Below are positions 4,649-15,412 of a stretch of 64,000 bases of DNA, one piece after another. The stretch spans positions 186,001 to 250,000 of the forward strand of contig NZ_ANFY01000007.1 of the NCBI RefSeq assembly GCF_000331225.1. The letters run 5' to 3'. The notes beneath the pieces were generated by a model. It made no database searches. It worked only from the letters and a program-made list of their open reading frames with translations, and was not told the origin of the DNA. The stretch comes from Sandarakinorhabdus sp. AAP62. Lineage in GTDB: Bacteria > Pseudomonadota > Alphaproteobacteria > Sphingomonadales > Sphingomonadaceae. The position numbers and the translations under genes are program-made. Numbering within the stretch: position 1 is the first letter of the stretch; each line of letters opens with the position of its first letter.

Positions 4649-5896
4649 TCAGAGGCCCATTTCACCTGCCGCCGCCCGGATGCGGCCCTGCACAGCGGCA
4701 TCGCCGGCAAAGGCGGCCAGCGCCTGATCGCGGGCCGTGCGGGCCGCTGCGGCATCGCCCAGCACCTGGCGGGCGCGCATCAGGCGCAGCCAGCCGGCTT
4801 CATCCCGGGGATTGGCCTTCAGCTTTTCGGCCAGGCCATCGACCATGCCGCGAATCATCTGCTGGCGATCCGCCGGGTTCATCGCCTGGGCGGCCTGCAC
4901 CTGTTCGCGGCTGGGGCTGGGCATCACGCCAGCCGGTGCGGCGGCATTGGCGGCAGCGGCAGCGGCCACCGGCGGCGGCAGGCCGGGCACGGCGGCATTG
5001 CCCACCGGCTGGGTGGCGGCCAGCCGGGCGCTGATATCGATGCCGGCGGCCTGCGCGGTCTGCTGAATCACTTGCTTCAGCTGCGGGAGCCAGGGCGCAT
5101 CGGCGGGCGAATCGGCCACCAGGCGCAGCATGTCCTCGATGGCGCCCTTGCGGTCACCCTGTTCGGCCTTGCGCACGGCCAGGAAATAGCGGGCGCGGGC
5201 ATCGGCGCCGTCCTGTGCGGCGGCCTTTTCGAAGGCAGCCGCAGCCGCCGGCGTGATCTGGCCACCGGCTTCCTGCACCAGCGCCTCGCCATAGGCAGAC
5301 TGAAAGCCTTCACCATCGGGTTTCAGCGCAATGGCGCGGGCATAGGCCTTGACGGCATCGGCATAGCGGCCGGTCTGGAAATAGCTCCAGCCCAGCATGC
5401 GCCAGCCTTCGGGGTCGCTGCCATTGGCCTGCACCTTCTGTTCGAGGCCGGCGATCAACTGGTTCACTTCACCTTGCGCGGCGGCTTCCTGCGCTGGCGC
5501 CGCAGCGGGCGCTGCAGCAGGCGCGGGCGCCGCACCAGCAGCCAGTTTTGGCTGTCCCATGCTGGCATAAAGTGCGGCAGCAGCAACCGCGACCATCGCG
5601 GCCAGGCCCAGCGCCAGCCCGGTCAGCGATTTCTGGCCCATGGTGCGGTCAAGCTCAGCCGGGATATGGCCGGCGGCGAGCAGGCGGCGGCGAAGTTCGT
5701 TGCGCAGGCCTTCGGCTTCGCCGGGCTGGATCGCACCGGCCGCCAGTTGCACATCGATATCGGCGAGCTGGTCCTTCAGCACGGCGATGGTGGCCGCGCG
5801 GGCGTCCACCCGGGCTTCATGGCGACGCACCAGCGGAATGGTGAGCCAGGCAGCGGCCAGCGCCGTGAGCGCAGTGAGGATGATCCAGAGCGTCAT
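4649..5896 (-). CDS. ccmI: Cytochrome c biogenesis protein CcmI
   Basis: Apocytochrome c chaperone of System I maturation. It begins MTLWIILTALTALAAAWLTI, a first transmembrane helix, followed by a Leu-zipper-like cytoplasmic loop (LKDQLADIDVQLAAGAIQ), a second helix near residue 105, and a periplasmic TPR region with Asp-Pro-Glu-Gly-Trp repeat features that binds apocytochrome tails. It has 415 aa. The ATG at 5896 lies 7 nt after ccmH and is the only start that places the membrane helix at the N-terminus; upstream in-frame codons would add a non-hydrophobic extension. Last gene of the ccmF-G-H-I operon. Confidence 0.92.
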   Translation of the reverse strand: MTLWIILTALTALAAAWLTIPLVRRHEARVDARAATIAVLKDQLADIDVQLAAGAIQPGEAEGLRNELRRRLLAAGHIPAELDRTMGQKSLTGLALGLAAMVAVAAAALYASMGQPKLAAGAAPAPAAAPAAAPAQEAAAQGEVNQLIAGLEQKVQANGSDPEGWRMLGWSYFQTGRYADAVKAYARAIALKPDGEGFQSAYGEALVQEAGGQITPAAAAAFEKAAAQDGADARARYFLAVRKAEQGDRKGAIEDMLRLVADSPADAPWLPQLKQVIQQTAQAAGIDISARLAATQPVGNAAVPGLPPPVAAAAAANAAAPAGVMPSPSREQVQAAQAMNPADRQQMIRGMVDGLAEKLKANPRDEAGWLRLMRARQVLGDAAAARTARDQALAAFAGDAAVQGRIRAAAGEMGL

Positions 5897-5903
5897 GGGG
5901 TTC

Positions 5904-6362
5904 TCAGTTGTCGGAGCCGGCAAGCCGGTCAAGTTCAGCGCGTTCTGCGGCGCTGAGCGGCGCAGCATCCTGGGTCGAGGTCGGCCGGCGGCGCTGCCAG
6001 AAGGCGATGCCGATGCCGCCCAGCAGCAGCACCGCAAACGGCCCCAACCACAGCAGCAGCGTGTCGCCTTCCACGGGCGGCTTCAGCAGCACGAAATTGC
6101 CATAGCGGGCAACGACATAATCCCGCACCTCGGCATCGGATTTGCCGGCGGCGATCTGTTCGCGCACCAGCACGCGCAGATCGCGGGCCAGCGGCGCATC
6201 GCTGTCGTCGATGGATTGATTCTGGCAAACAACGCAGCGCAGATCCTTGGAAATCGCCCGCGCGCGGCTTTCCTGGGCGGCATCGGGCAGCATTTCATCG
6301 GGCATGACAGCGGCCACCGGCGAGGCGGCCAGCAGCGCAAGAAGCATGGCAAGGCGCTTCAT
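5904..6362 (-). CDS. ccmH: Cytochrome c maturation protein CcmH (thiol-reducing)
   Basis: 152-aa membrane-anchored periplasmic oxidoreductase that works with CcmG to keep apocytochrome CxxCH cysteines reduced. The diagnostic motif LRCVVCQNQSIDDSDA (RCxxCQNQSI) follows an N-terminal signal, and a C-terminal transmembrane helix (LLLWLGPFAVLLLGGIGIAF) precedes a short basic tail. The length fits the single-domain CcmH/NrfF/CycL form, with the TPR part being the separate ccmI. Its ATG overlaps the ccmG stop as ATGA. Confidence 0.95.
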   Translation of the reverse strand: MKRLAMLLALLAASPVAAVMPDEMLPDAAQESRARAISKDLRCVVCQNQSIDDSDAPLARDLRVLVREQIAAGKSDAEVRDYVVARYGNFVLLKPPVEGDTLLLWLGPFAVLLLGGIGIAFWQRRRPTSTQDAAPLSAAERAELDRLAGSDN

Positions 6363-6892
6363 GCTTCGGCCCGCAGTTGCTGCATCAGCGGCTTGATCTG
6401 CTGTTCCCAGATTTCCGGGCTGATCGGGCCGATCTGCTTGAAGCGGACCCGGCCCTTCTTATCGACCACGAACGTCTCGGGCGCGCCGGTCACGCCCAGA
6501 TCGATGGCGGTGCGGCCGGGGAAATCACTGCCCATGCCCGAATAGGGATCGCCATAGCGGGCGAGGAAGGCGCGGCTGTCTTCCGGCTTGTCCTTCCAGG
6601 CGATGCCATAGACGGGGAAGCCTTCCTTCGCGATGCGTTCCAGCACGGGGTGTTCCTGCGGGCAGGCGGCGCACCAGCTGGCCCACACGTTGAGCAGCCG
6701 CGGCTCGCCCCTGAAGCTGGCGCTGGCGAGGCCGGGCCCGCCTTCCACGATGCCGGGCAAGGCGAATTCGGGCAGCGGTCGGTCGATCAGTTGGCTCGGC
6801 AGTTCCTTCGGGTCCTGCGTCAGGCCAAAGCCCAGGAAGGCGGCCAGCCCGGCAAAGACGAGGATCGGCAGGATGAACAGCAGGCGTTTCAT
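6359..6892 (-). CDS. ccmG: Thiol:disulfide interchange protein CcmG/DsbE
   Basis: 177-aa thioredoxin-fold protein tethered by an N-terminal helix (MKRLLFILPILVFAGLAAFL). The active site is NVWASWCAACPQEHPVL (WCxxC), the acidic GIAWKDKPEDSRAFL region typical of CcmG follows, and the cis-Pro loop is GVTGAPETFVVD. It supplies reductant to CcmH for haem attachment. It sits 9 nt after ccmF and overlaps ccmH by 4 nt. Confidence 0.95.
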   Translation of the reverse strand: MKRLLFILPILVFAGLAAFLGFGLTQDPKELPSQLIDRPLPEFALPGIVEGGPGLASASFRGEPRLLNVWASWCAACPQEHPVLERIAKEGFPVYGIAWKDKPEDSRAFLARYGDPYSGMGSDFPGRTAIDLGVTGAPETFVVDKKGRVRFKQIGPISPEIWEQQIKPLMQQLRAEA

Positions 6893-6901
6893 GGGCCGAA
6901 C

Positions 6902-8887
6902 TTATTCCGCCGGAACCAGCGTGGGCGCAAGAGGTGAGCGCAGCTGCGGCGCTCCGATGCGGAAGCGGCGATCCGCGAGGCTGGCGCAACCGCCCATCGC
7001 CATCAGCAGGCCGCCAAACCAGATCCAGCCGACCAGCGGGTGCCAGTAGATGCGCACCACCAGGCCCTGCCCGCGCGCATCCTGCTGCACATCACCGATG
7101 GCAACATATTGATTGCCCAGCAGCGACACGCCGATACCGGCTTCCGTCGTCTGATTGCCCGACACGGTGTAAAGCCGGCGTTCGGAGATCAGCAGGCCTT
7201 CCCTGCCATTCTGGGCCACGGTGAAGCGGGCACGCAGGGCACGATAATTGGCGCCGTCCACTTCTTCGGCGCCCAGCATCTTCACGCTCACCGGCCCGGC
7301 CACGGCCGTCTCGCCGGGGCGCATGACCAGGATCTTCTCGGCAGCAAAGCTGGTCATCGACGCGATGCCGGCGGTGGTGAAGCCCAGGCCAGCATGGGCA
7401 AGCACCAGGCCAATGGTGGCGGCCGGCGTGGTCCGCACCAGCCGGAGCGAAAAGCCACCGGCGCCCCACCAGCGGCGCACCAATACCAGCACGGCTCCCA
7501 GCACCAGCCAGGCCCCCAACGCGAGGCCGAGCGCTGCCACCACCTGCTGCCAGCCGAAGGCCAGCACCAATGCCGCCAGCAGCGCGGCCACGATGGCGGT
7601 GGGCACCAGCAGTTTCCTGCCCAGCGTGGCCAGATCATCGCGCTTCCACGCCAGCATCGGCCCGATGGTGACCAGCAGCAGCAACGGCGTCGCCAGCGGC
7701 ACGAAGACCAGGTTGTAATAAGGCGGGCCCACCGAAATCTTGTTGGCGGGCGACACGGCTTCCATGATTACCGGATAGAAAGTGCCCAGGAACACCACGG
7801 CAGTGAGCGCCATCAGCAGCAGATTGTTCATGGTCAGTCCCGATTCGCGGCTGACGCTGCCGAACAGGGCGCCGGATTTCAGCATCGGTGCGCGCGCCGC
7901 AAACATCGCCAGCGCGGTGCCGGTGGCGCCGATGATCATGGCCAGAATGAACACGCCGCGTTCCGGATCGACCGCGAAGGCATGGACCGAAGTGAGAATG
8001 CCGGAGCGGACGAGGAAGGTGCCGATCAGGCTGAGCGAGAAGGCCATGATGGCGAGCAGGATGGTCCAACCCGCCAGGCTGCCGCGCTTTTCGGTGACGA
8101 TCGCCGAATGCAGCAGTGCCGTGCCGATCAGCCACGGCATGAAGCTGGCGTTTTCCACCGGATCCCAGAACCACCAGCCGCCCCAGCCCAATTCATAATA
8201 GGCCCAGAAACTGCCCAGGGTGATGCCGATGGTGAGCGGGATCCACGCCGCCAGCACCCATGGCCGCATCCAGCGCGCCCAGGCCGGATCGGCGCGGCCT
8301 TCCAGCAGCGCCGCCACGGCAAAGCTGAAGGTGACGGAAAAGCCGACATAGCCGAGGTAAAGCAGCGGCGGATGGAAGACGAGGCCGGGATCCTGCAGCA
8401 ACGGGTTGAGTTCGGCGCCATCCAGCGGCACCGGGAACAGGCGCTCGAACGGGTTGGAGGTGAAGAGCGCGAAGGCCAGGAAGGCCACGCTGATCATCGC
8501 CTGAATGCTCAAGATTCGGGCCTGCAGCGTGGCCCGCAGATTATCGCCGAATTTCGCGATGCCGGCGCCATAGACGGACAATACCAGCACCCACAGCAGC
8601 ATCGATCCTTCGTGATTGCCCCAGGTTGCGGCCAGCCGGTAGGGCAGGGGCTGCGAAAGGGCGCTGTGATTGGCGACCAGCTTGACCGAGAAATCGGCCT
8701 GGCCGAACAATGTCATCAGGCTGCCAAAGCTGATGGCGATCAGCAACGCCTGCAGGCTTGCCGCGCTGCGCCCAAACGCCATCAGCGCCGCATCACCGCG
8801 GATGGCGCCCAGCATCGGCAGCACAGATTGTGCAATCGCCACCAGCAGGGTGAGGATCAGGGCGAAATGGCCGATTTCGGCAAGCAT
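6902..8887 (-). CDS. ccmF: Haem lyase subunit CcmF
   Basis: 661-aa polytopic membrane protein, the core of the System I haem lyase. The WWD haem-handling signature appears as ELGWGGWWFWDPVENASFMP, with flanking conserved segments ATWGNHEGSMLLWVLV and FHPPLLYLGYVGFSVTFSFA. The start is set at ATG 8887 (MLAEIGHFALIL), the usual CcmF beginning, with a GGAGA Shine-Dalgarno 10 nt upstream; a longer in-frame reading lacks family support. First gene of ccmF-G-H-I. ccmE, often directly upstream of ccmF in alphaproteobacteria, is absent here, and a divergent gene lies upstream instead. Confidence 0.95.
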   Translation of the reverse strand: MLAEIGHFALILTLLVAIAQSVLPMLGAIRGDAALMAFGRSAASLQALLIAISFGSLMTLFGQADFSVKLVANHSALSQPLPYRLAATWGNHEGSMLLWVLVLSVYGAGIAKFGDNLRATLQARILSIQAMISVAFLAFALFTSNPFERLFPVPLDGAELNPLLQDPGLVFHPPLLYLGYVGFSVTFSFAVAALLEGRADPAWARWMRPWVLAAWIPLTIGITLGSFWAYYELGWGGWWFWDPVENASFMPWLIGTALLHSAIVTEKRGSLAGWTILLAIMAFSLSLIGTFLVRSGILTSVHAFAVDPERGVFILAMIIGATGTALAMFAARAPMLKSGALFGSVSRESGLTMNNLLLMALTAVVFLGTFYPVIMEAVSPANKISVGPPYYNLVFVPLATPLLLLVTIGPMLAWKRDDLATLGRKLLVPTAIVAALLAALVLAFGWQQVVAALGLALGAWLVLGAVLVLVRRWWGAGGFSLRLVRTTPAATIGLVLAHAGLGFTTAGIASMTSFAAEKILVMRPGETAVAGPVSVKMLGAEEVDGANYRALRARFTVAQNGREGLLISERRLYTVSGNQTTEAGIGVSLLGNQYVAIGDVQQDARGQGLVVRIYWHPLVGWIWFGGLLMAMGGCASLADRRFRIGAPQLRSPLAPTLVPAE

Positions 8888-8954
8888 TTGCAGGTCGTCT
8901 CCAGCAGTTGGCGGCGGCATAATGGCGAAATAACGCATCTGCCTGCATTCTTGC

Positions 8955-8980
8955 TCTAGCCGATGCGTATCAAGATGCTA
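8955..8980. promoter_or_regulatory. Candidate FNR/CRP-family box between ccmF and the cyclic-nucleotide redox operon
   Basis: The 164-bp divergent region 8888-9051 carries CCGAT-GCGT-ATCAA at 8960-8973, matching 8 of 10 positions of the FNR-type inverted repeat TTGAT-N4-ATCAA. It lies about 85 bp upstream of the plus-strand GTG and about 75 bp upstream of ccmF. No clear -35/-10 pair was recognised. This is a pattern match only; a single site with two mismatches can arise by chance. Confidence 0.25.
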
Positions 8981-9051
8981 GGATTTATCTGGAATCAAAG
9001 CACTGCTACAAGCTTTGTATCGAGGGGCTGACACCGGGGGGCAAGGCCGTT

Positions 9052-11583
9052 GTGACGACGTATCGCATCGCGATTGTGGGTTCAGGGCCGGGGGGCCTTT
9101 CAGCAGCGGCGCATGCCGCGAAGCTGGGGTTGAGCCACATCCTGCTCGAAAAGACTGACCATCTGTCGGACACGATCTACAAATATCAGAAGGGCAAGCA
9201 TGTGATGGCGACGCCGTCACAGCTGGTGCTGCGCTCGCCGCTGGATTTCGAAGCCGGCAAGCGCGAGGTGGTGCTGGGCACCTGGAACGAACAGACGGCC
9301 GCTGCCGGCGTGAACGTCAAGCACGGCGCCGAAGTGAAAAGCATCGTCGGCACCGGCGCGCCCATCCCCGGCTCGGTGATGCAGCTGGCCACCCGCAACC
9401 GCGATGGCACCACCAGCACCACCGAACTGCAGCGCAACGCGCCGCCCTATCGGCTGACGCTGACCAACGGCGAAGAAATCATGGCCGAAGCCGTGATCAT
9501 GGCGCTCGGCACCCAGGGCAATCCCAATCTGATGGGCTGCCCCGGCGGCAACCTGCCCCATGTCCAGTATCAGCTCGACGATCCCACCGAATATACCGAC
9601 GAACATATCTTCGTGATCGGCGGCGGCGATGCCGGTATTGAAAACGCGCTCGGCCTGTGCGCCGATCCGGCCCAGAACAACACGGTCACGCTGATCAACC
9701 GTACGGCCGATTTCCCCACCGCCAAGGATGCCAACGTCAAGGCATTGCTGGCGGCGCGCGATGCCGGCCGCATCAGCATCATGGCCGAATCCAACACGAC
9801 GATGGTGGAACCCGGCTTCATCACGGTGGAAACCCGCGATGGTGAAGTGCGCGCGCGCTGCGACCGGATCATCGCCCGCATCGGTTCGGCGCCGCCGCGC
9901 GGCTTTGTCGAAAGCTGCGGCATCGAATTTGCCAGTGCCGACCGGCTGGCCTTCCCCAAATTGTCGGCCACCTTCGAATCGACCGCGCCGGGCATCTATG
10001 TCGTCGGCGCCTTGGCCGGTTATCCGCTGATCAAGCATTGCATGAACCAGGGCCACGACGTGGTGGAGTTCATCAACGGCAATCTCGATCTGAAACCCGC
10101 CGACGAACCGATCCTGGAAGCCAAATTTGCCGGCCTGCCCGGCCGGCGCAGTGTCGCCGAGTGGCTGGAGTATCTGCGGGATCGCGTTTCGATCCTGAAT
10201 GGCATGAGCAGCCTGCAGATGCGCGAGTTCATGCTCGATTCGGCGGTGAAACTGTATCGCGCCGGGGAAACCATCTTCGAACGCAGCGCGCCGGGTTCCT
10301 CACTGTTCGGCATCGCCGATGGCGAAGTCGCGGTGGAAGTGAACCCCAATGATCCATCGATCACCGTGCCGATCGGCACCGGCCAGATCTTCGGCGAAGT
10401 CGGCCTGATTTCCGGCCGCCGCCGCGGCGCCACCATCAAGGCGGCGCGCGACACGATCGTTGTCGAGATCAGCCGCAACGCCGCGCTGAAGCTGATGAGC
10501 CAGGTGCCGTCGGCATCGCGCGAAATCACCCGCATCAACACCGAACGCACCCTGCTGCAGATCTTCAAGTCCGGTCTCGCACCCGCCGATCTGGTGGACG
10601 TGATCGCTGGCGCCAAGGTGGAAACCATCCGCGCCGGCCAGGCCATCATCAAGGAAGGCGAGACCGGCGACGACATCTTCATCATCCGTTCGGGATCGAT
10701 GGTGGTGGAAAAGTCGATCGGCGGCAAACCGGTGTTCCTCTCCTATGTGCCGGCCGGCAGCTATGTCGGCGAAATGGCGGTGATCGACGGCAGCGCGCGC
10801 TCCGCCACCGTGCGTGCCGCGGTGAAAAGCGACGTGATCCGCCTCGCCGGCGAGCCGTTCCGCGCACTGCTCGCCGCCAAGCCGCAATTGCTCGACAAGT
10901 TGCGCGGCGAAATGGCCAGCCGCACCAAGCTCAACAATTTCGTCGAATCCAAGAAGGACAGTTTCTCCGGCGTGGTCGACATGTATACGGGCGTCGCCAA
11001 CTTCCTGGTTGAACAGGGGGTTGGCGAAGCCACCGACGTGCTGCTGATCGATGAGAAGCTCTGTGTGGGCTGCGACAATTGCGAAAAGGCCTGCGCCGAT
11101 ACCCACGACGGCCTGTCGCGGCTGGATCGCGAAGCCGGGCGCACCTACGCCCATCTGCACGTGCCGACCAGCTGTCGCCACTGCGAACATCCGCACTGCA
11201 TGGCCGATTGCCCGCCCAACGCCATCCATCGCGGGCCCACCGGCGAAGTCTATATCGATGAAACCTGCATCGGTTGCGGCAACTGCCAGCGCAACTGCCC
11301 CTATGGCGTGATCCGGCTCGACAAGACGCCGCCGAAGAAACCCTGGCTGCTCAGCTGGTTCCTGTTCGGCAGCGGGCCCGGACCCGGCGAAGCCAGCCAC
11401 AAATGGGCCAAGAAACATGATCCTGCCTATGCCGAAAAGGCCAAGAAGGCGATCAAGTGCGACATGTGTTCGGGCCAGGAAGGCGGCCCGGCCTGCGTGC
11501 GCGCCTGCCCCACCGGCGCTGCCATTCGCGTGTCGCCGGAACAGTTCCTGAGCGTTTCCCTGATGAACCGGGAGGATCGCTGA
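9052..11583 (+). CDS. FAD reductase - two cyclic-nucleotide domains - multi-[4Fe-4S] ferredoxin fusion
   Basis: 843-aa predicted cytoplasmic redox protein with three modules. Residues 1-340: FAD/NAD(P)-binding reductase with the FAD site VGSGPGGLSAAAHA, a second dinucleotide site VIGGGDAGIENAL and a C-terminal ATFESTAPGIYVVGAL motif; it lacks the CxxC of thioredoxin reductases (YpdA-like). Residues about 393-505 and 510-628: two cAMP/cGMP-binding domains whose phosphate cassettes keep Glu and Arg (FGEVGLISGRRRGAT and VGEMAVIDGSARSAT). Residues about 670-830: ferredoxin with CVGCDNCEKAC, SCRHCEHPHCMADC, CIGCGNCQRNC and CDMCSGQEGGPACVRAC, enough cysteines for about four clusters, similar to DmsB/HybA subunits. 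GTG start with GGGGGG upstream. Its stop overlaps the cytochrome b-like gene. Inferred role: cyclic-nucleotide-gated electron input from NAD(P)H to a membrane cytochrome. Confidence 0.88.
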   Translation: MTTYRIAIVGSGPGGLSAAAHAAKLGLSHILLEKTDHLSDTIYKYQKGKHVMATPSQLVLRSPLDFEAGKREVVLGTWNEQTAAAGVNVKHGAEVKSIVGTGAPIPGSVMQLATRNRDGTTSTTELQRNAPPYRLTLTNGEEIMAEAVIMALGTQGNPNLMGCPGGNLPHVQYQLDDPTEYTDEHIFVIGGGDAGIENALGLCADPAQNNTVTLINRTADFPTAKDANVKALLAARDAGRISIMAESNTTMVEPGFITVETRDGEVRARCDRIIARIGSAPPRGFVESCGIEFASADRLAFPKLSATFESTAPGIYVVGALAGYPLIKHCMNQGHDVVEFINGNLDLKPADEPILEAKFAGLPGRRSVAEWLEYLRDRVSILNGMSSLQMREFMLDSAVKLYRAGETIFERSAPGSSLFGIADGEVAVEVNPNDPSITVPIGTGQIFGEVGLISGRRRGATIKAARDTIVVEISRNAALKLMSQVPSASREITRINTERTLLQIFKSGLAPADLVDVIAGAKVETIRAGQAIIKEGETGDDIFIIRSGSMVVEKSIGGKPVFLSYVPAGSYVGEMAVIDGSARSATVRAAVKSDVIRLAGEPFRALLAAKPQLLDKLRGEMASRTKLNNFVESKKDSFSGVVDMYTGVANFLVEQGVGEATDVLLIDEKLCVGCDNCEKACADTHDGLSRLDREAGRTYAHLHVPTSCRHCEHPHCMADCPPNAIHRGPTGEVYIDETCIGCGNCQRNCPYGVIRLDKTPPKKPWLLSWFLFGSGPGPGEASHKWAKKHDPAYAEKAKKAIKCDMCSGQEGGPACVRACPTGAAIRVSPEQFLSVSLMNREDR

Positions 11584-12488
11584 TGGCCAGCACCGCACCT
11601 GTGCGCAAGGCGATGACCGGCAAGGCCGTCACCCGCGCCCCGCGTGATACCGCCCACGAAGGCTTCCTCACCCACAAGCGTGGCCGCTGGGCCAAGGTGG
11701 CGCTGACGTTGAGCATCGTGGCGATGGGCGCCTATCTGCTCACCGATCCGGTGCCGCGCCACAATGGCGGCACCTGGCTCGGCTATCTGCTCGGCAGCAT
11801 CGGCGCCGGCATGATCGTCTGGCTTTCCTTGCTCGGCGTGCGCAAGCGCGTGATCGGCTCCAAGCCGTTCAGCCTCAAGGGCTGGACCAGCGCGCACGTT
11901 TATCTGGGCCTGTCACTGATCGTCATCGGTACGCTGCACACCGGTTTCCAGCTCGGCTGGAATGTCCACACGCTGGCCTGGGCGCTGATGATGATCGTGA
12001 TCCTTTCCGGCCTGTGGGGCATCAGCCTTTATGCCAATCTGCCCGAACGCCTGTCGGCCAATCGCGGTGAGGTGACCCAGCTGCAGATGCTGGAAGCCAT
12101 CCGTACGCTGGATCGCCAACTCGATACCGCCGCCCAGCCGCTGGGCGGCGAGGATGCCGAATTTGTGCGGATGAGCCTGGAACAATGCACGATCGCCGGA
12201 TCGCTGCGCCAGCGGCTGTTCGGCAACTACGCCAGCGACGGCAACGCCCGCGCGCTGGCAGCGATCAGCGAAAAGGTGATGGCCGGCCTGCGATCCGGCC
12301 GGGCGGATGATCGGCTGCAGCAGATCCAGTTCCTGCTGGAACGCAAGGAAGCGGCCCTGGCCCAGGCCCGCCGCCATATCTCCTTGAAAACGCAACTGGA
12401 ATTGTGGCTCTATGTGCATGTGCCGGTAACCATCGCGTTGCTGGCCGCGCTGCTGGCGCACATCATTTCCGTGTTCCTGTACTGGTAA
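11583..12488 (+). CDS. Predicted diheme cytochrome b-like membrane protein
   Basis: 301-aa integral membrane protein with about five helices. Two helices each carry a His pair spaced 14 residues apart: HVYLGLSLIVIGTLH (about residue 105) and HVPVTIALLAALLAH near the C-terminus. That spacing is classical for bis-His double-haem cytochromes b. Between them is a charged cytoplasmic or coiled region (about residues 160-265). The ATG overlaps the preceding TGA as TGATG. Its position between an Fe-S/flavin reductase and a multihaem cytochrome c predicts a transmembrane electron conduit. The family was not recognised by name; the cytochrome b assignment rests on His spacing and context. Confidence 0.75.
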   Translation: MASTAPVRKAMTGKAVTRAPRDTAHEGFLTHKRGRWAKVALTLSIVAMGAYLLTDPVPRHNGGTWLGYLLGSIGAGMIVWLSLLGVRKRVIGSKPFSLKGWTSAHVYLGLSLIVIGTLHTGFQLGWNVHTLAWALMMIVILSGLWGISLYANLPERLSANRGEVTQLQMLEAIRTLDRQLDTAAQPLGGEDAEFVRMSLEQCTIAGSLRQRLFGNYASDGNARALAAISEKVMAGLRSGRADDRLQQIQFLLERKEAALAQARRHISLKTQLELWLYVHVPVTIALLAALLAHIISVFLYW

Positions 12489-12501
12489 GGGAGAGGCGGG
12501 C

Positions 12502-14433
12502 ATGAGCTTCATCGTTCGCCAGGTCGCCAAGCGCGCCGATGGTGGGGACATCATTCGCACCCGCACGCTGGTGCAGGCCGAATTGACCGTTGGCCGCGGC
12601 ACGGATTGCGATATCCAGCTGGCCGATCTGGCCGTGATGCTGCGCCACGCGCGGCTGGTGAAGATCACCGCCGACAAGGTGAGCGTGGAAACCACCGGCG
12701 GCGTGCCGGTGGAAGTGGGCGGCAAGTTCGTCACCCGCGCCGATCTGACCATTGCGGACAATCCCACCATCGATGTTGGCCCCTATCGCCTGTCGCTGTC
12801 GCCGGGCGAGGATGGCGCTGTTGCCATCACCGCGACACGCGTCGTGCCGCCGATCGAGGCGGCCGACGCGGCGCAGGAAACCAGCATCTTTTCGCTGTCG
12901 GGCGCGATGCCAACCCGGCGGCGCATGGCCTGGGTTGGTGCACTTGCCGTGCTGGTGCTGCTGTTCCTGGTGCCGCTGTTCCACTTCATCGGCGAGGATC
13001 AGGCCGATCTGCCCAAGGACATGGTGGCCGAAGCCGCCCGCCCGATCACGCCGGGCCAGGCCTTTGGCGATGGCAAGCTGAGCGTGCCGACGGCACGGCC
13101 GGCAGCGGCGGGCGGATTTGCCCCCGATGAAAGCTGGTCGAGCGGCACGCTCTCCAACGCGCACGCCAGCCTGTCGAACAATTGTGGCGCCTGCCACCAG
13201 AAGGCCTTTGTTTCCGTGACGGACGGCGCCTGCCAGGCGTGCCACACCAAGGCTGCCCTGCCCGATCACGCTGCACCGGCGCGCATGGCCAGGGGCCGGC
13301 TGCCCGAAACCGGCGTGATGGGCGCGGCGCACAGCGCCTTCAATCTGCCGCAGGGCCGCTGCACCAGCTGCCACAAGGAACATGAAGGCGAAGCCACCGT
13401 GATGACGGTCGCCGAATCCTTCTGCACCGATTGCCACAGCGGCCTGAACGGGCGGCTGCCCGATACGGCGGTGGCCAATGTGCCGGGTTGGGCCAAGCAC
13501 CCAGATTTCCGCGCCACGCTGGTCTCGTCACCGTCGCTCGACAAGCCGGTGTTCACCCGCACCGCGCTGGCCGGCGCGCGCGAGAAATCCGGCCTGATCT
13601 ACCCGCACGACATCCACCAATCCACCACCAACGCCGTGGCCAACATGGCGCAGAAACAGCGGCTGCCAGTGGGCGCCGATGGTGCCCTGCCCTGCAGCTA
13701 TTGCCACAAGGCCGACAGCGACCAGGTGCGGTTCAAACCCATCGACATGGAAGCCAATTGCGGCGCCTGCCACGATCTGGCCTTCGCCCGCGATGGTGGC
13801 ACCGTTCGCACGCTGCCACACGGCAAGCCGGCGCAGGTGGCCGGCATCATCCGCGATTTCACCCTTTCCGAAAGCTTTGCTCCCCGTGCTGGTGTGCAGC
13901 GCCTGAGCTTTGATCGCCGCCTGCCCGGCAAGGCACCGCCGCCGCTTTCCGGTGGCAATCCGGCGGCCCGCGCACAGGCTGCGGTGGTGAGCGTGTTCAC
14001 TGGCAAGGGCCTGTGCACCGAATGCCACGTCATCACCGACACCGGCGCCGCCGATCTGACGCGGCGCTTCACCATCGCACCGGTCAGCATCAATGATCAT
14101 TATCTGCCGCAAGGCCAGTTCCCGCACGGCAAGCACAAGAGCTATGACGCCAAGACCGGCCAGGCCGCCTGCGTCGCCTGCCACACCGGCGTGATGAAAT
14201 CCAAGGCCTCCACCGACGTGAACATCCCCGGCGTTGCCAATTGCCGCGAATGCCACGGCGCCCCGGCCAAGACGCTGCTCAGCAACACGGCCAAGGCCGG
14301 CGCCAGCTGCGACACCTGCCACGGCTATCACGACGGGGTTGCACCCGGCGCCCCCCTTCCCGCCGGCCATGTCCAGCCCGCCCGGGTTGCCGGCCGACAG
14401 GCTGCCGGCCGCAACCGGCAGACCCCGGCCTGA
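12502..14433 (+). CDS. FHA domain - transmembrane - decaheme cytochrome c fusion
   Basis: 643-aa protein. Residues 1-110 resemble a cytoplasmic FHA phosphopeptide-recognition domain (LTVGRGTDCDIQLADLAVM followed by HARL, although the usual Ser-x-x-His is degenerate). One membrane helix is near residues 135-158 (AWVGALAVLVLLFLVPLFHF), and the rest is a predicted periplasmic region with ten CxxCH haem sites (CGACH, CQACH, CTSCH, CTDCH, CSYCH, CGACH, CTECH, CVACH, CRECH, CDTCH) between about residues 228 and 605. Extra His residues could serve as distal ligands. A strong Shine-Dalgarno (GGGAGAGGCGGG) sits before ATG 12502. Predicted terminal electron carrier of the operon; haem attachment would need the adjacent Ccm proteins. 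Confidence 0.88.
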   Translation: MSFIVRQVAKRADGGDIIRTRTLVQAELTVGRGTDCDIQLADLAVMLRHARLVKITADKVSVETTGGVPVEVGGKFVTRADLTIADNPTIDVGPYRLSLSPGEDGAVAITATRVVPPIEAADAAQETSIFSLSGAMPTRRRMAWVGALAVLVLLFLVPLFHFIGEDQADLPKDMVAEAARPITPGQAFGDGKLSVPTARPAAAGGFAPDESWSSGTLSNAHASLSNNCGACHQKAFVSVTDGACQACHTKAALPDHAAPARMARGRLPETGVMGAAHSAFNLPQGRCTSCHKEHEGEATVMTVAESFCTDCHSGLNGRLPDTAVANVPGWAKHPDFRATLVSSPSLDKPVFTRTALAGAREKSGLIYPHDIHQSTTNAVANMAQKQRLPVGADGALPCSYCHKADSDQVRFKPIDMEANCGACHDLAFARDGGTVRTLPHGKPAQVAGIIRDFTLSESFAPRAGVQRLSFDRRLPGKAPPPLSGGNPAARAQAAVVSVFTGKGLCTECHVITDTGAADLTRRFTIAPVSINDHYLPQGQFPHGKHKSYDAKTGQAACVACHTGVMKSKASTDVNIPGVANCRECHGAPAKTLLSNTAKAGASCDTCHGYHDGVAPGAPLPAGHVQPARVAGRQAAGRNRQTPA

Positions 14434-14557
14434 TGCGCGGGCCCTCTTGCAATCGTTGCGTCAGTGCATCAGTTTTCCAGCCCGTGCCGTATCTGTTGAG
14501 GCAACGGCCATTTGGGGGGCAGCCCGCGCGTTGTGAGTGGCCGCAGAGAGGCGCAAG

Positions 14558-15412
14558 ATGCTGATTGCCCAGGTGACGGATATCCACCTCGGTTTCCAGC
14601 CGGATGATCCGGCGGAAATGAACCGCAAGCGTTTCGACGAGGTGGTGGAATCGCTGCTGGCGCTGACGCCGCAGCCCGATTTGTTGCTGGCCACCGGCGA
14701 TCTCACCGAAAGCGGCAGCATCGCATCCTATCAGACCCTGAAGACCATCGCCGAACGTCTGCCCTTTCCGGTGCATTTCGCGCTGGGCAATCACGACGCC
14801 CGCGCCAATTTCCGCAGCGTGTTCCCCGAAGTTCCGGTGAGCAGCACTGGCCATGTGCAATATGCCTTCGTGCACGGCCCGATGCGCTTCGTGGTGCTCG
14901 ACACGCTGGAGGAAGGCCATCACGGCGGCGCGCTGACCGCCGAGCAGGCGCAATGGCTGGACGAGACGCTGATGGAAGACAGCCGGCCGACCATCCTGGT
15001 GCTGCACCACCCGCCGATCGAGACTGGCAACGGCTGGATGACCGAGGATCTGGATGCCCCCTGGGTGCAGCGTCTCGCCGCCGTGGTGCGCCGTCACCCG
15101 CAGATCATCCGCATGATCACCGGGCATCTGCATCGCGCCATCGTGACGGGCTGGCACGGCACCACGCTGGCCGTATGCCCGTCAGCGGCGCCGCAAGTGG
15201 CGATCGATTTCCGCGAGATCGATGGCGACAATCCCGATGGCCGCGACATGATCGTGGCCGAACTGCCCGGCTTTGCCCTGCATTATTGGACGGGCCGCGA
15301 CCTGATCACCCATTTCTGCGCCGGCGGTGAGCACCCGGTGCTGGCCCGCTACAACGCGCGCATGCAGCCGACGGTACAGCATATATTGGCGGAGCGCACC
15401 GGGGCGCATTGA
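14558..15412 (+). CDS. CpdA-like metallophosphoesterase (putative cyclic-nucleotide phosphodiesterase)
   Basis: 284-aa calcineurin-like phosphoesterase with the complete metal-binding set: DIHLG, ATGDLTESG, LGNHDARAN, VLHHPPI and TGHLHR. The GNHD and GHLHR pattern and the length match class III 3',5'-cAMP phosphodiesterases (CpdA). ATG 14558 has AGAGAGG upstream and starts MLIAQVTDIHLGF; an in-frame GTG at 14537 would add 7 residues. It lies 124 bp after the FHA-cytochrome gene on the same strand and two genes beyond the protein with two cyclic-nucleotide domains, so a linked role in nucleotide turnover is plausible but inferred. Other members hydrolyse glycerophosphodiesters. Confidence 0.85.
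   Translation: MLIAQVTDIHLGFQPDDPAEMNRKRFDEVVESLLALTPQPDLLLATGDLTESGSIASYQTLKTIAERLPFPVHFALGNHDARANFRSVFPEVPVSSTGHVQYAFVHGPMRFVVLDTLEEGHHGGALTAEQAQWLDETLMEDSRPTILVLHHPPIETGNGWMTEDLDAPWVQRLAAVVRRHPQIIRMITGHLHRAIVTGWHGTTLAVCPSAAPQVAIDFREIDGDNPDGRDMIVAELPGFALHYWTGRDLITHFCAGGEHPVLARYNARMQPTVQHILAERTGAH

Follow-up and report, generated by a model that had tools for sequence, protein, structure and literature searches.

How a cyclic-nucleotide signal could be joined to multihaem electron transfer is the question raised by three adjacent genes of the alphaproteobacterium Sandarakinorhabdus sp. AAP62. They lie in a stretch of 64,000 nucleotides, here called the window, which covers positions 186001-250000 of contig NZ_ANFY01000007.1 (C7) in a 3.1-Mb genome; positions are window coordinates unless prefixed C3 or C6. 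A sequence-only reading had described a flavin/Fe-S fusion protein with two cyclic-nucleotide-binding domains (gene 1), a bis-haem cytochrome b (gene 2) and a decahaem protein with an FHA-like domain (gene 3), and had seen in them a complete transmembrane electron path. Our analysis well supports a conserved operon of electron-transfer nature. A plausible path from flavin and Fe-S clusters through a bis-haem-type protein to a decahaem protein stands, but it is not complete: a larger conserved set contains these genes, which form just its inner part. This set extends past the three genes to a phosphodiesterase-like gene (gene 4) and to outer-module genes elsewhere in the genome (Table 1). On balance we lean towards a fuller interpretation, in which the set would form an envelope-spanning electron route from NAD(P)H whose activity is set by cyclic nucleotides.

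The three-gene core and its conservation

The tight packing first described for the three genes was borne out. All three open reading frames are present on the plus strand, genes 1 and 2 overlap in a TGATG, and 13 nt separate genes 2 and 3. Conserved synteny had been set beforehand as a test, and two samples of relatives agree with it. An alignment scan of species genomes with gene 1 found at least 565 relatives, of which the best 80 were retained and all analysed; the closest are metagenome-assembled genomes of Sphingomonadales and Sandarakinorhabdus species. The order is kept in every evaluable locus: gene 2 comes after gene 1 (79 of 79, one further contig ending too early) and gene 3 after gene 2 (74 of 74). 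The second set comprised 35 loci that match gene 2 strongly, 24 of them drawn from the 37 such matches in the class and 11 from a search of the phylum. There, gene 1 adjoins gene 2 in 31 of 35 loci and gene 3 does so in 34, the remaining locus ending within gene 3, and the gene 1 proteins are 44-67% identical to that of the window (seven measured). In two genomes of one genus from another class (L165 and L166), genes 1 and 2 form a single reading frame, which argues for direct contact between the two proteins; gene 3 of these loci has nine haem motifs.

The fusion architecture of gene 1 is confirmed by family profiles. Pyr_redox_3 scores 95 bits against a Pfam cut-off of 30, cNMP_binding (PF00027) scores 113 bits against 27.5 over two stretches, and several Fer4 models exceed their cut-offs (e.g., Fer4_7, 46 vs. 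27 bits). The best solved relatives in the PDB include kinase regulatory subunits, formate-hydrogenlyase/HycB-type proteins and YpdA-type reductases. As the sequence-only reading had noticed, both phosphate-binding cassettes keep their Glu and Arg: Gly448, Glu449 and Arg458 of the first domain and Gly573, Glu574 and Arg583 of the second are invariant in 81/81 proteins (the window plus 80 relatives) and in 31/31 second-set proteins, and so are all 16 Cys of the Fe-S region. These residues are suited to binding, so that gene 1 is predicted to bind cyclic AMP (cAMP) or cyclic GMP (cGMP); that the nucleotide would also control the enzyme does not follow from them. The residue after the cassette Arg bears on the preference for cAMP or cGMP. 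It is Gly in 80 of the 81 proteins in domain 1; in domain 2 it is Thr in 71, Ser in nine (including the window) and Asn in one, and it is more variable in the 31 second-set proteins. Tandem cyclic-nucleotide domains with intact cassettes are shared with the regulatory subunits of protein kinases A and G (PKA and PKG) and with CRP, which join them to a kinase inhibitor or DNA-binding domain, whereas in gene 1 they are fused to a flavin/Fe-S redox protein. Classification of gene 1 as a thioredoxin or bacillithiol reductase was rejected (YpdA, 117 of 340 bits; TrxR, 42 of 343 bits; on inspection by eye the reductase domain shows no CxxC).

Gene 2 has the ligand pattern of a bis-haem cytochrome b. 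The two His pairs first noticed in its sequence, His105/His119 and His279/His293, are each spaced by 14 residues and lie in two membrane helices, as in cytochromes b with two pairs 13-14 residues apart. All four His are kept in 48/48 gene 2 proteins (48 of 80 rows available, window counted), and both pairs with their spacing persist in divergent homologues that match the gene 2 profile at 97.7% (L188) and 98.5% (L190) probability. In the hydropathy plot, helices 2, 4 and 5 are clearly over the cut-off and helix 1 barely so, while helix 3 is under it yet helical in the structural model. Hydropathy, loop charge and the model are compatible with five membrane helices and a cytoplasmic N-terminus, a topology that would place His105 and His279 towards the cytoplasm and His119 and His293 towards the periplasm. 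These ligand residues predict that gene 2 binds haem. Although strong matches to gene 2 occur in 37 of 385 class genomes and 17 families, and in other classes too, no curated family of Pfam or NCBIfam includes it; ten members run against NCBIfam gave nothing relevant. Its best Pfam match, PF01292, reached E 0.18 and 12 of 30.1 bits, with no other cytochrome b family at E 1, and a PDB sequence search gave no match. Gene 2 shares with the cytochromes b of the bc1 and NOX/ferric-reductase types two helices whose paired His are spaced by 14 residues, and differs from these cytochromes in having no family match and no significant Foldseek match in the PDB. The homologue in a Sphingobium record is annotated "hypothetical protein".

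Gene 3 contains the three parts originally described, an FHA-like domain, one hydrophobic helix and ten CxxCH motifs; shuffled sequences had a mean of 0.03 such motifs and a maximum of two (2000 shuffles). Multihaem models of the c3/c7 type score over their cut-offs (PF14522, 49.6 vs. 24.8 bits; PF14537, 46.2 vs. 25 bits), and second-set homologues have ten motifs in 32 of 34 cases and nine in the other two. Membership of the MtrA/DmsE decahaem family was rejected (TIGR03508, 19.8 vs. 192.2 bits). Profile searches, which had been proposed for every domain, thus succeeded for the flavin, nucleotide-binding, Fer4 and multihaem parts, but the single gene 3 sequence stayed under the Pfam cut-off for FHA (17.6 vs. 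20.7 bits). We nevertheless accept the fold, because a 31-row profile of the N-terminus places the FHA domains of GarA, OdhI, TB39.8 and Rad53 at the top of the PDB matches (best E 7e-6). The domain carries the conserved Gly-Arg and His of FHA. In FHA domains a Ser three residues before this His contacts the phosphopeptide, and it is present in 0 of 74 aligned gene 3 relatives. Therefore, the phosphopeptide recognition originally ascribed to gene 3 is not supported, and a docking role without phosphorylation dependence appears more likely for this domain.

Among the 385 class genomes, 42 have gene 2 at E 1e-5, with 37 strong and five weak matches. The phylum search detected it in 16 of 398 genomes (one match being weak). 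Of 60 relatives, 25 carry it, and so do 20 of the 24 members of the genus, the window's genome counted. Large Sphingobium plasmids or replicons also carry a homologue (12 of 72,556 plasmid records).

Two other arrangements were observed. Three order or class genomes (L024, L025 and L188) have a divergent gene 2 relative beside CxxCH-rich proteins (24 motifs in 623 residues in L188; 42 Cys in L024 and 68 in L025). A Pyr_redox-like protein is encoded separately in the vicinity, and the arrangement represents a second type of cytochrome b associated with multihaem proteins. A variant inner module (L189, 4820-7287; L190, 5004-11096; L191, 1023-4668) has cyclic-nucleotide and Fe-S domains but lacks the flavin reductase part; a gene-2-like cytochrome comes next, followed by a multihaem protein in L190 and L191, and a c554-like tetrahaem protein lies 5' of the module in L189 and L190.

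The phosphodiesterase-like neighbour and the upstream region

Gene 4 encodes a metallophosphoesterase domain (PF00149, 66.6 vs. 21.5 bits), and its PDB matches include Rv0805. In NCBIfam the highest-scoring models are those of SpdA and CpdA, both under the equivalog cut-off (120.7 of 400 and 98.3 of 225 bits, respectively), so that we describe the product as class III cyclic-nucleotide phosphodiesterase-like, of the CpdA/SpdA/Rv0805 type. Of the 71 relatives that could be evaluated (the 80 minus three whose contigs end early and six without gene 3 on the contig), 64 have a homologue directly 3' of gene 3, and three of the other seven have one 2-3 kb further on. In the second set, all five loci from the window's family carry the gene. 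In the window's genome a single domain also exceeds the cut-off for class III cyclases. Together, the adjacent phosphodiesterase-like gene and the cyclase domain support a nucleotide signal in the window's family; outside it, a second-messenger link would come from gene 1 only.

Upstream of gene 1 is a promoter-like element, TCTAGC-N18-TAGGAT, the sole match in the window. A similar element precedes gene 1 in 13 of the 80 relatives, some of them near-identical genomes, compared to 0.17 in shuffles, and the spacer is always 18 nt. With at most one mismatch, FNR- and CRP-type sites were found upstream of gene 1 in 0 and 1 of the 80 loci, respectively. At two mismatches, FNR-type sites occur in 15/80 loci (shuffled mean 3.1, maximum 7) and CRP-type sites in 13/80 (mean 4.75, maximum 10), both above the shuffles, in loci that are related to one another; a scan of the whole window for FNR sites with up to two mismatches gave 20 matches vs. 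11.9 expected. Divergent from gene 1, on the minus strand at 4649-8938, runs a set read by eye as the cytochrome c maturation genes ccmI, ccmH, ccmG and ccmF. A CcmF homologue falls inside the fetched flank in 12 of 80 relatives.

Outer-module genes

On the plasmid pMSHV of Sphingobium herbicidovorans (L202 and L203), which is labelled conjugative, the inner cluster, the phosphodiesterase gene and an outer set occur together. The strand opposite the cluster encodes a multihaem cytochrome of 1329 residues (GIANT), a hypothetical protein of 612 residues (POR), a heme-binding protein of 658 residues (HBPS) and a tetrahaem cytochrome of 454 residues (C4). GIANT has ten invariant CxxCH motifs and LVIVD repeats in 10/10 aligned sequences; its haems are widely spaced and the LVIVD part is propeller-like. 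Its first haem region weakly resembles the ActA-type pentahaem cytochromes of alternative complex III (entries 8k9e and 6lod; E 0.11, not significant); the loci examined showed no further part of this complex. HBPS homologues contain HbpS-like repeats, and the N-terminus of HBPS is lipobox-like by eye. Outer-membrane barrels end in an aromatic residue, and the C-terminal residue of POR homologues is Tyr or Phe in 11/11, which makes POR a candidate outer-membrane barrel.

Downstream of gene 3 and in its orientation, 22 of the 35 second-set loci encode HBPS and POR, joined by GIANT in 18, and GIANT is within the fetched flank in 26 of 80 Sphingomonadales-type loci. Among the 385 class genomes GIANT occurs in 29, all of which belong to the 37 that match gene 2 strongly (p about 1e-36 when kinship is disregarded). 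The two share a contig in 23 of the 29; in the other six, including the window's genome, they do not, and some of these separations perhaps reflect contig breaks only. Another outer set stands beside the inner module in L170, L178, L183 and L214, consisting of C4, a pentahaem protein of 604-641 residues and a protein of about 535 residues. The first three of these are among the eight class genomes with gene 2 that lack GIANT, and have this tetrahaem/pentahaem set instead. The pentahaem protein of L170 weakly matches ExtKL.

Table 1. Features of the locus and of the outer genes in the window's genome (C3 and C6 positions as prefixed)
Feature	Position	Strand	Description
Gene 1	9052..11583	+	843 aa, GTG start; flavin reductase-like + two cyclic-nucleotide domains + four [4Fe-4S]
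Gene 1, reductase domain			about aa 4-334; flavin NAD(P)H-reductase-like
Gene 1, phosphate-binding cassette of cyclic-nucleotide domain 1	10390..10443	+	aa 447-464; Glu449, Arg458
Gene 1, phosphate-binding cassette of cyclic-nucleotide domain 2	10765..10818	+	aa 572-589; Glu574, Arg583
Gene 1, four [4Fe-4S] sites	11041..11547	+	region aa 664-825; 16 Cys at aa 671-819
Gene 2	11583..12488	+	301 aa; predicted five-helix b-type cytochrome
Gene 3	12502..14433	+	643 aa; FHA-like domain + one helix + ten CxxCH
Gene 3, parts			FHA-like aa 1-103; hydrophobic helix aa 145-163; ten CxxCH aa 228-607
Gene 4	14558..15412	+	metallophosphoesterase, SpdA/CpdA-like; alternative GTG start possible at 14537
Promoter-like TCTAGC-N18-TAGGAT	8955..8984	+	upstream of gene 1
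Probable ccmF	6902..8938	-	divergent neighbour of gene 1; named by eye, without family search
GIANT	C3:84778-88977
POR	C3:88979-90865
C4	C3:90862-92280
HBPS	C6:88135-90492

Direction, end point and control of the proposed electron route

In the route that we favor, electrons from NAD(P)H would pass over the flavin and the four [4Fe-4S] clusters of gene 1 to gene 2, whose two haems, one between His105 and His279 and one between His119 and His293, would carry them across the inner membrane. The helix-anchored gene 3 protein would dock in the cytosol through its FHA-like domain and accept the electrons in the periplasm with its decahaem domain. From there they may proceed to the outer module, comprising the tetrahaem c554-like protein, the candidate barrel POR, the decahaem/LVIVD protein GIANT and the HbpS-like lipoprotein, with a final acceptor probably at or beyond the outer membrane. 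Binding of cAMP or cGMP to gene 1 would set the activity, and in the window's family the neighbouring phosphodiesterase may terminate the signal. A bolder version, a conduit from NAD(P)H to the surface that largely bypasses the quinone pool and in which the second messenger directly gates an outer-membrane multihaem current, is offered only tentatively and is on the doubtful side.

Shewanella MtrCAB/CymA is a porin-cytochrome conduit with an inner-membrane feeder. Such conduits are also described for Geobacter, with the feeders ImcH and CbcL, in the part of the source available (PMC6148476). The system described here resembles these in having an inner-membrane step, a periplasmic multihaem protein and a barrel, here a candidate, beside a large multihaem protein. 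It differs at the input, where a b-type cytochrome and a flavin/Fe-S protein that resembles NAD(P)H reductases and bears cyclic-nucleotide domains replace the quinol-oxidising c-type protein, and, unlike MtrCAB and the porin-cytochrome conduits, in a decahaem protein outside the MtrA/DmsE family and a barrel with candidate status only. The nearest described cluster that we met is Geobacter extHIJKLMNOPQS, a selenite/tellurite cluster (PMC5877670). As far as the available part of that source extends, it likewise has a porin-like protein, tetra-/decahaem and other multihaem cytochromes and a membrane b-type cytochrome, but its inner part differs, with Rieske and rhodanese proteins and no cyclic-nucleotide domain seen in that part. 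GIANT scores 64 of 800 bits with ExtM (NF040943), over residues 558-608 only and under the equivalog cut-off; this score and the differing make-up of ext led us to reject membership of the Ext operon. The individual domains of our set are known, while their combination matched no curated model used. No description of such a system was found in an open-licence full-text library, in agreement with the original remark that none was known.

Electrons most likely flow outward from NAD(P)H: gene 1 looks like a pyridine-nucleotide flavoprotein wired to Fe-S clusters, an assembly that more often serves as electron input, and the downstream haem proteins start with signal-like sequences. The parts as such fit inward flow equally well: the outer module would be the oxidising enzyme for a donor outside the cell or in the periplasm, whose electrons the inner module, driven by the membrane potential, would deliver to NAD(P)+ or ferredoxin, the cyclic nucleotides reporting the energy or carbon state. 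GIANT, with its spaced haems and propeller-like part, could then be an enzyme. However, no donor enzyme was identified, and given the input-like make-up of gene 1 we consider the reverse direction unlikely. A separate matter is where the chain ends. It might feed a periplasmic reductase or redox-repair enzyme, the outer genes being separate and merely co-inherited, and this would accord with their location at two other loci in the window's genome, with the absence of GIANT from 8 of the 37 class genomes and with the candidate status of POR. Against it, every one of the 29 GIANT genomes has gene 2, mostly on the same contig, and in three genomes of one genus gene 1 lies directly 3' of the GIANT gene and not beside gene 2; a periplasmic end therefore seems rather improbable. 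We give similarly little credence to a purely structural role of the cyclic-nucleotide domains, for instance in dimerisation, with a chain that runs without second-messenger control. Some relatives of these domains bind no ligand and the residue after the cassette Arg is variable, but the Glu and Arg of both cassettes are invariant and a phosphodiesterase-like gene adjoins the operon in the window's family. Finally, binding of a phosphorylated partner by the FHA-like domain, which would add kinase control, could appeal to the fold with its Gly-Arg and His, but with the contacting Ser missing from all relatives aligned it is very improbable.

Several observations weigh against the envelope-spanning, nucleotide-controlled route. 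The gene 2 model gave nothing at E 0.001 with Foldseek in the PDB and a viral library. The AlphaFold model of POR is not usable, with a mean predicted local distance difference test score (pLDDT) of 27.7 (from an eight-row alignment with seven partial rows), and none of the porin families exceeded threshold with POR. The phosphodiesterase-like gene is present in 0 of 30 second-set loci outside the window's family. No outer genes were seen near the loci with the fused genes 1 and 2, and the lack of GIANT in eight gene 2 genomes belongs here as well. In one genome (G179) genes 1 and 2 are on separate contigs, in another (G283) gene 1 was not found, and gene 2 is missing from four of the 24 members of the genus, including three whose genomes have a completeness of at least 97%.

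Cyclic nucleotides are known to act mainly on transcription factors, kinases and channels. If the favored route is true, a redox enzyme with two cyclic-nucleotide domains would head a trans-envelope electron chain, which would be a new kind of control. Sphingomonadales are better known for aerobic life, and the cluster gives this order a candidate system of extracellular electron exchange that can be tested.

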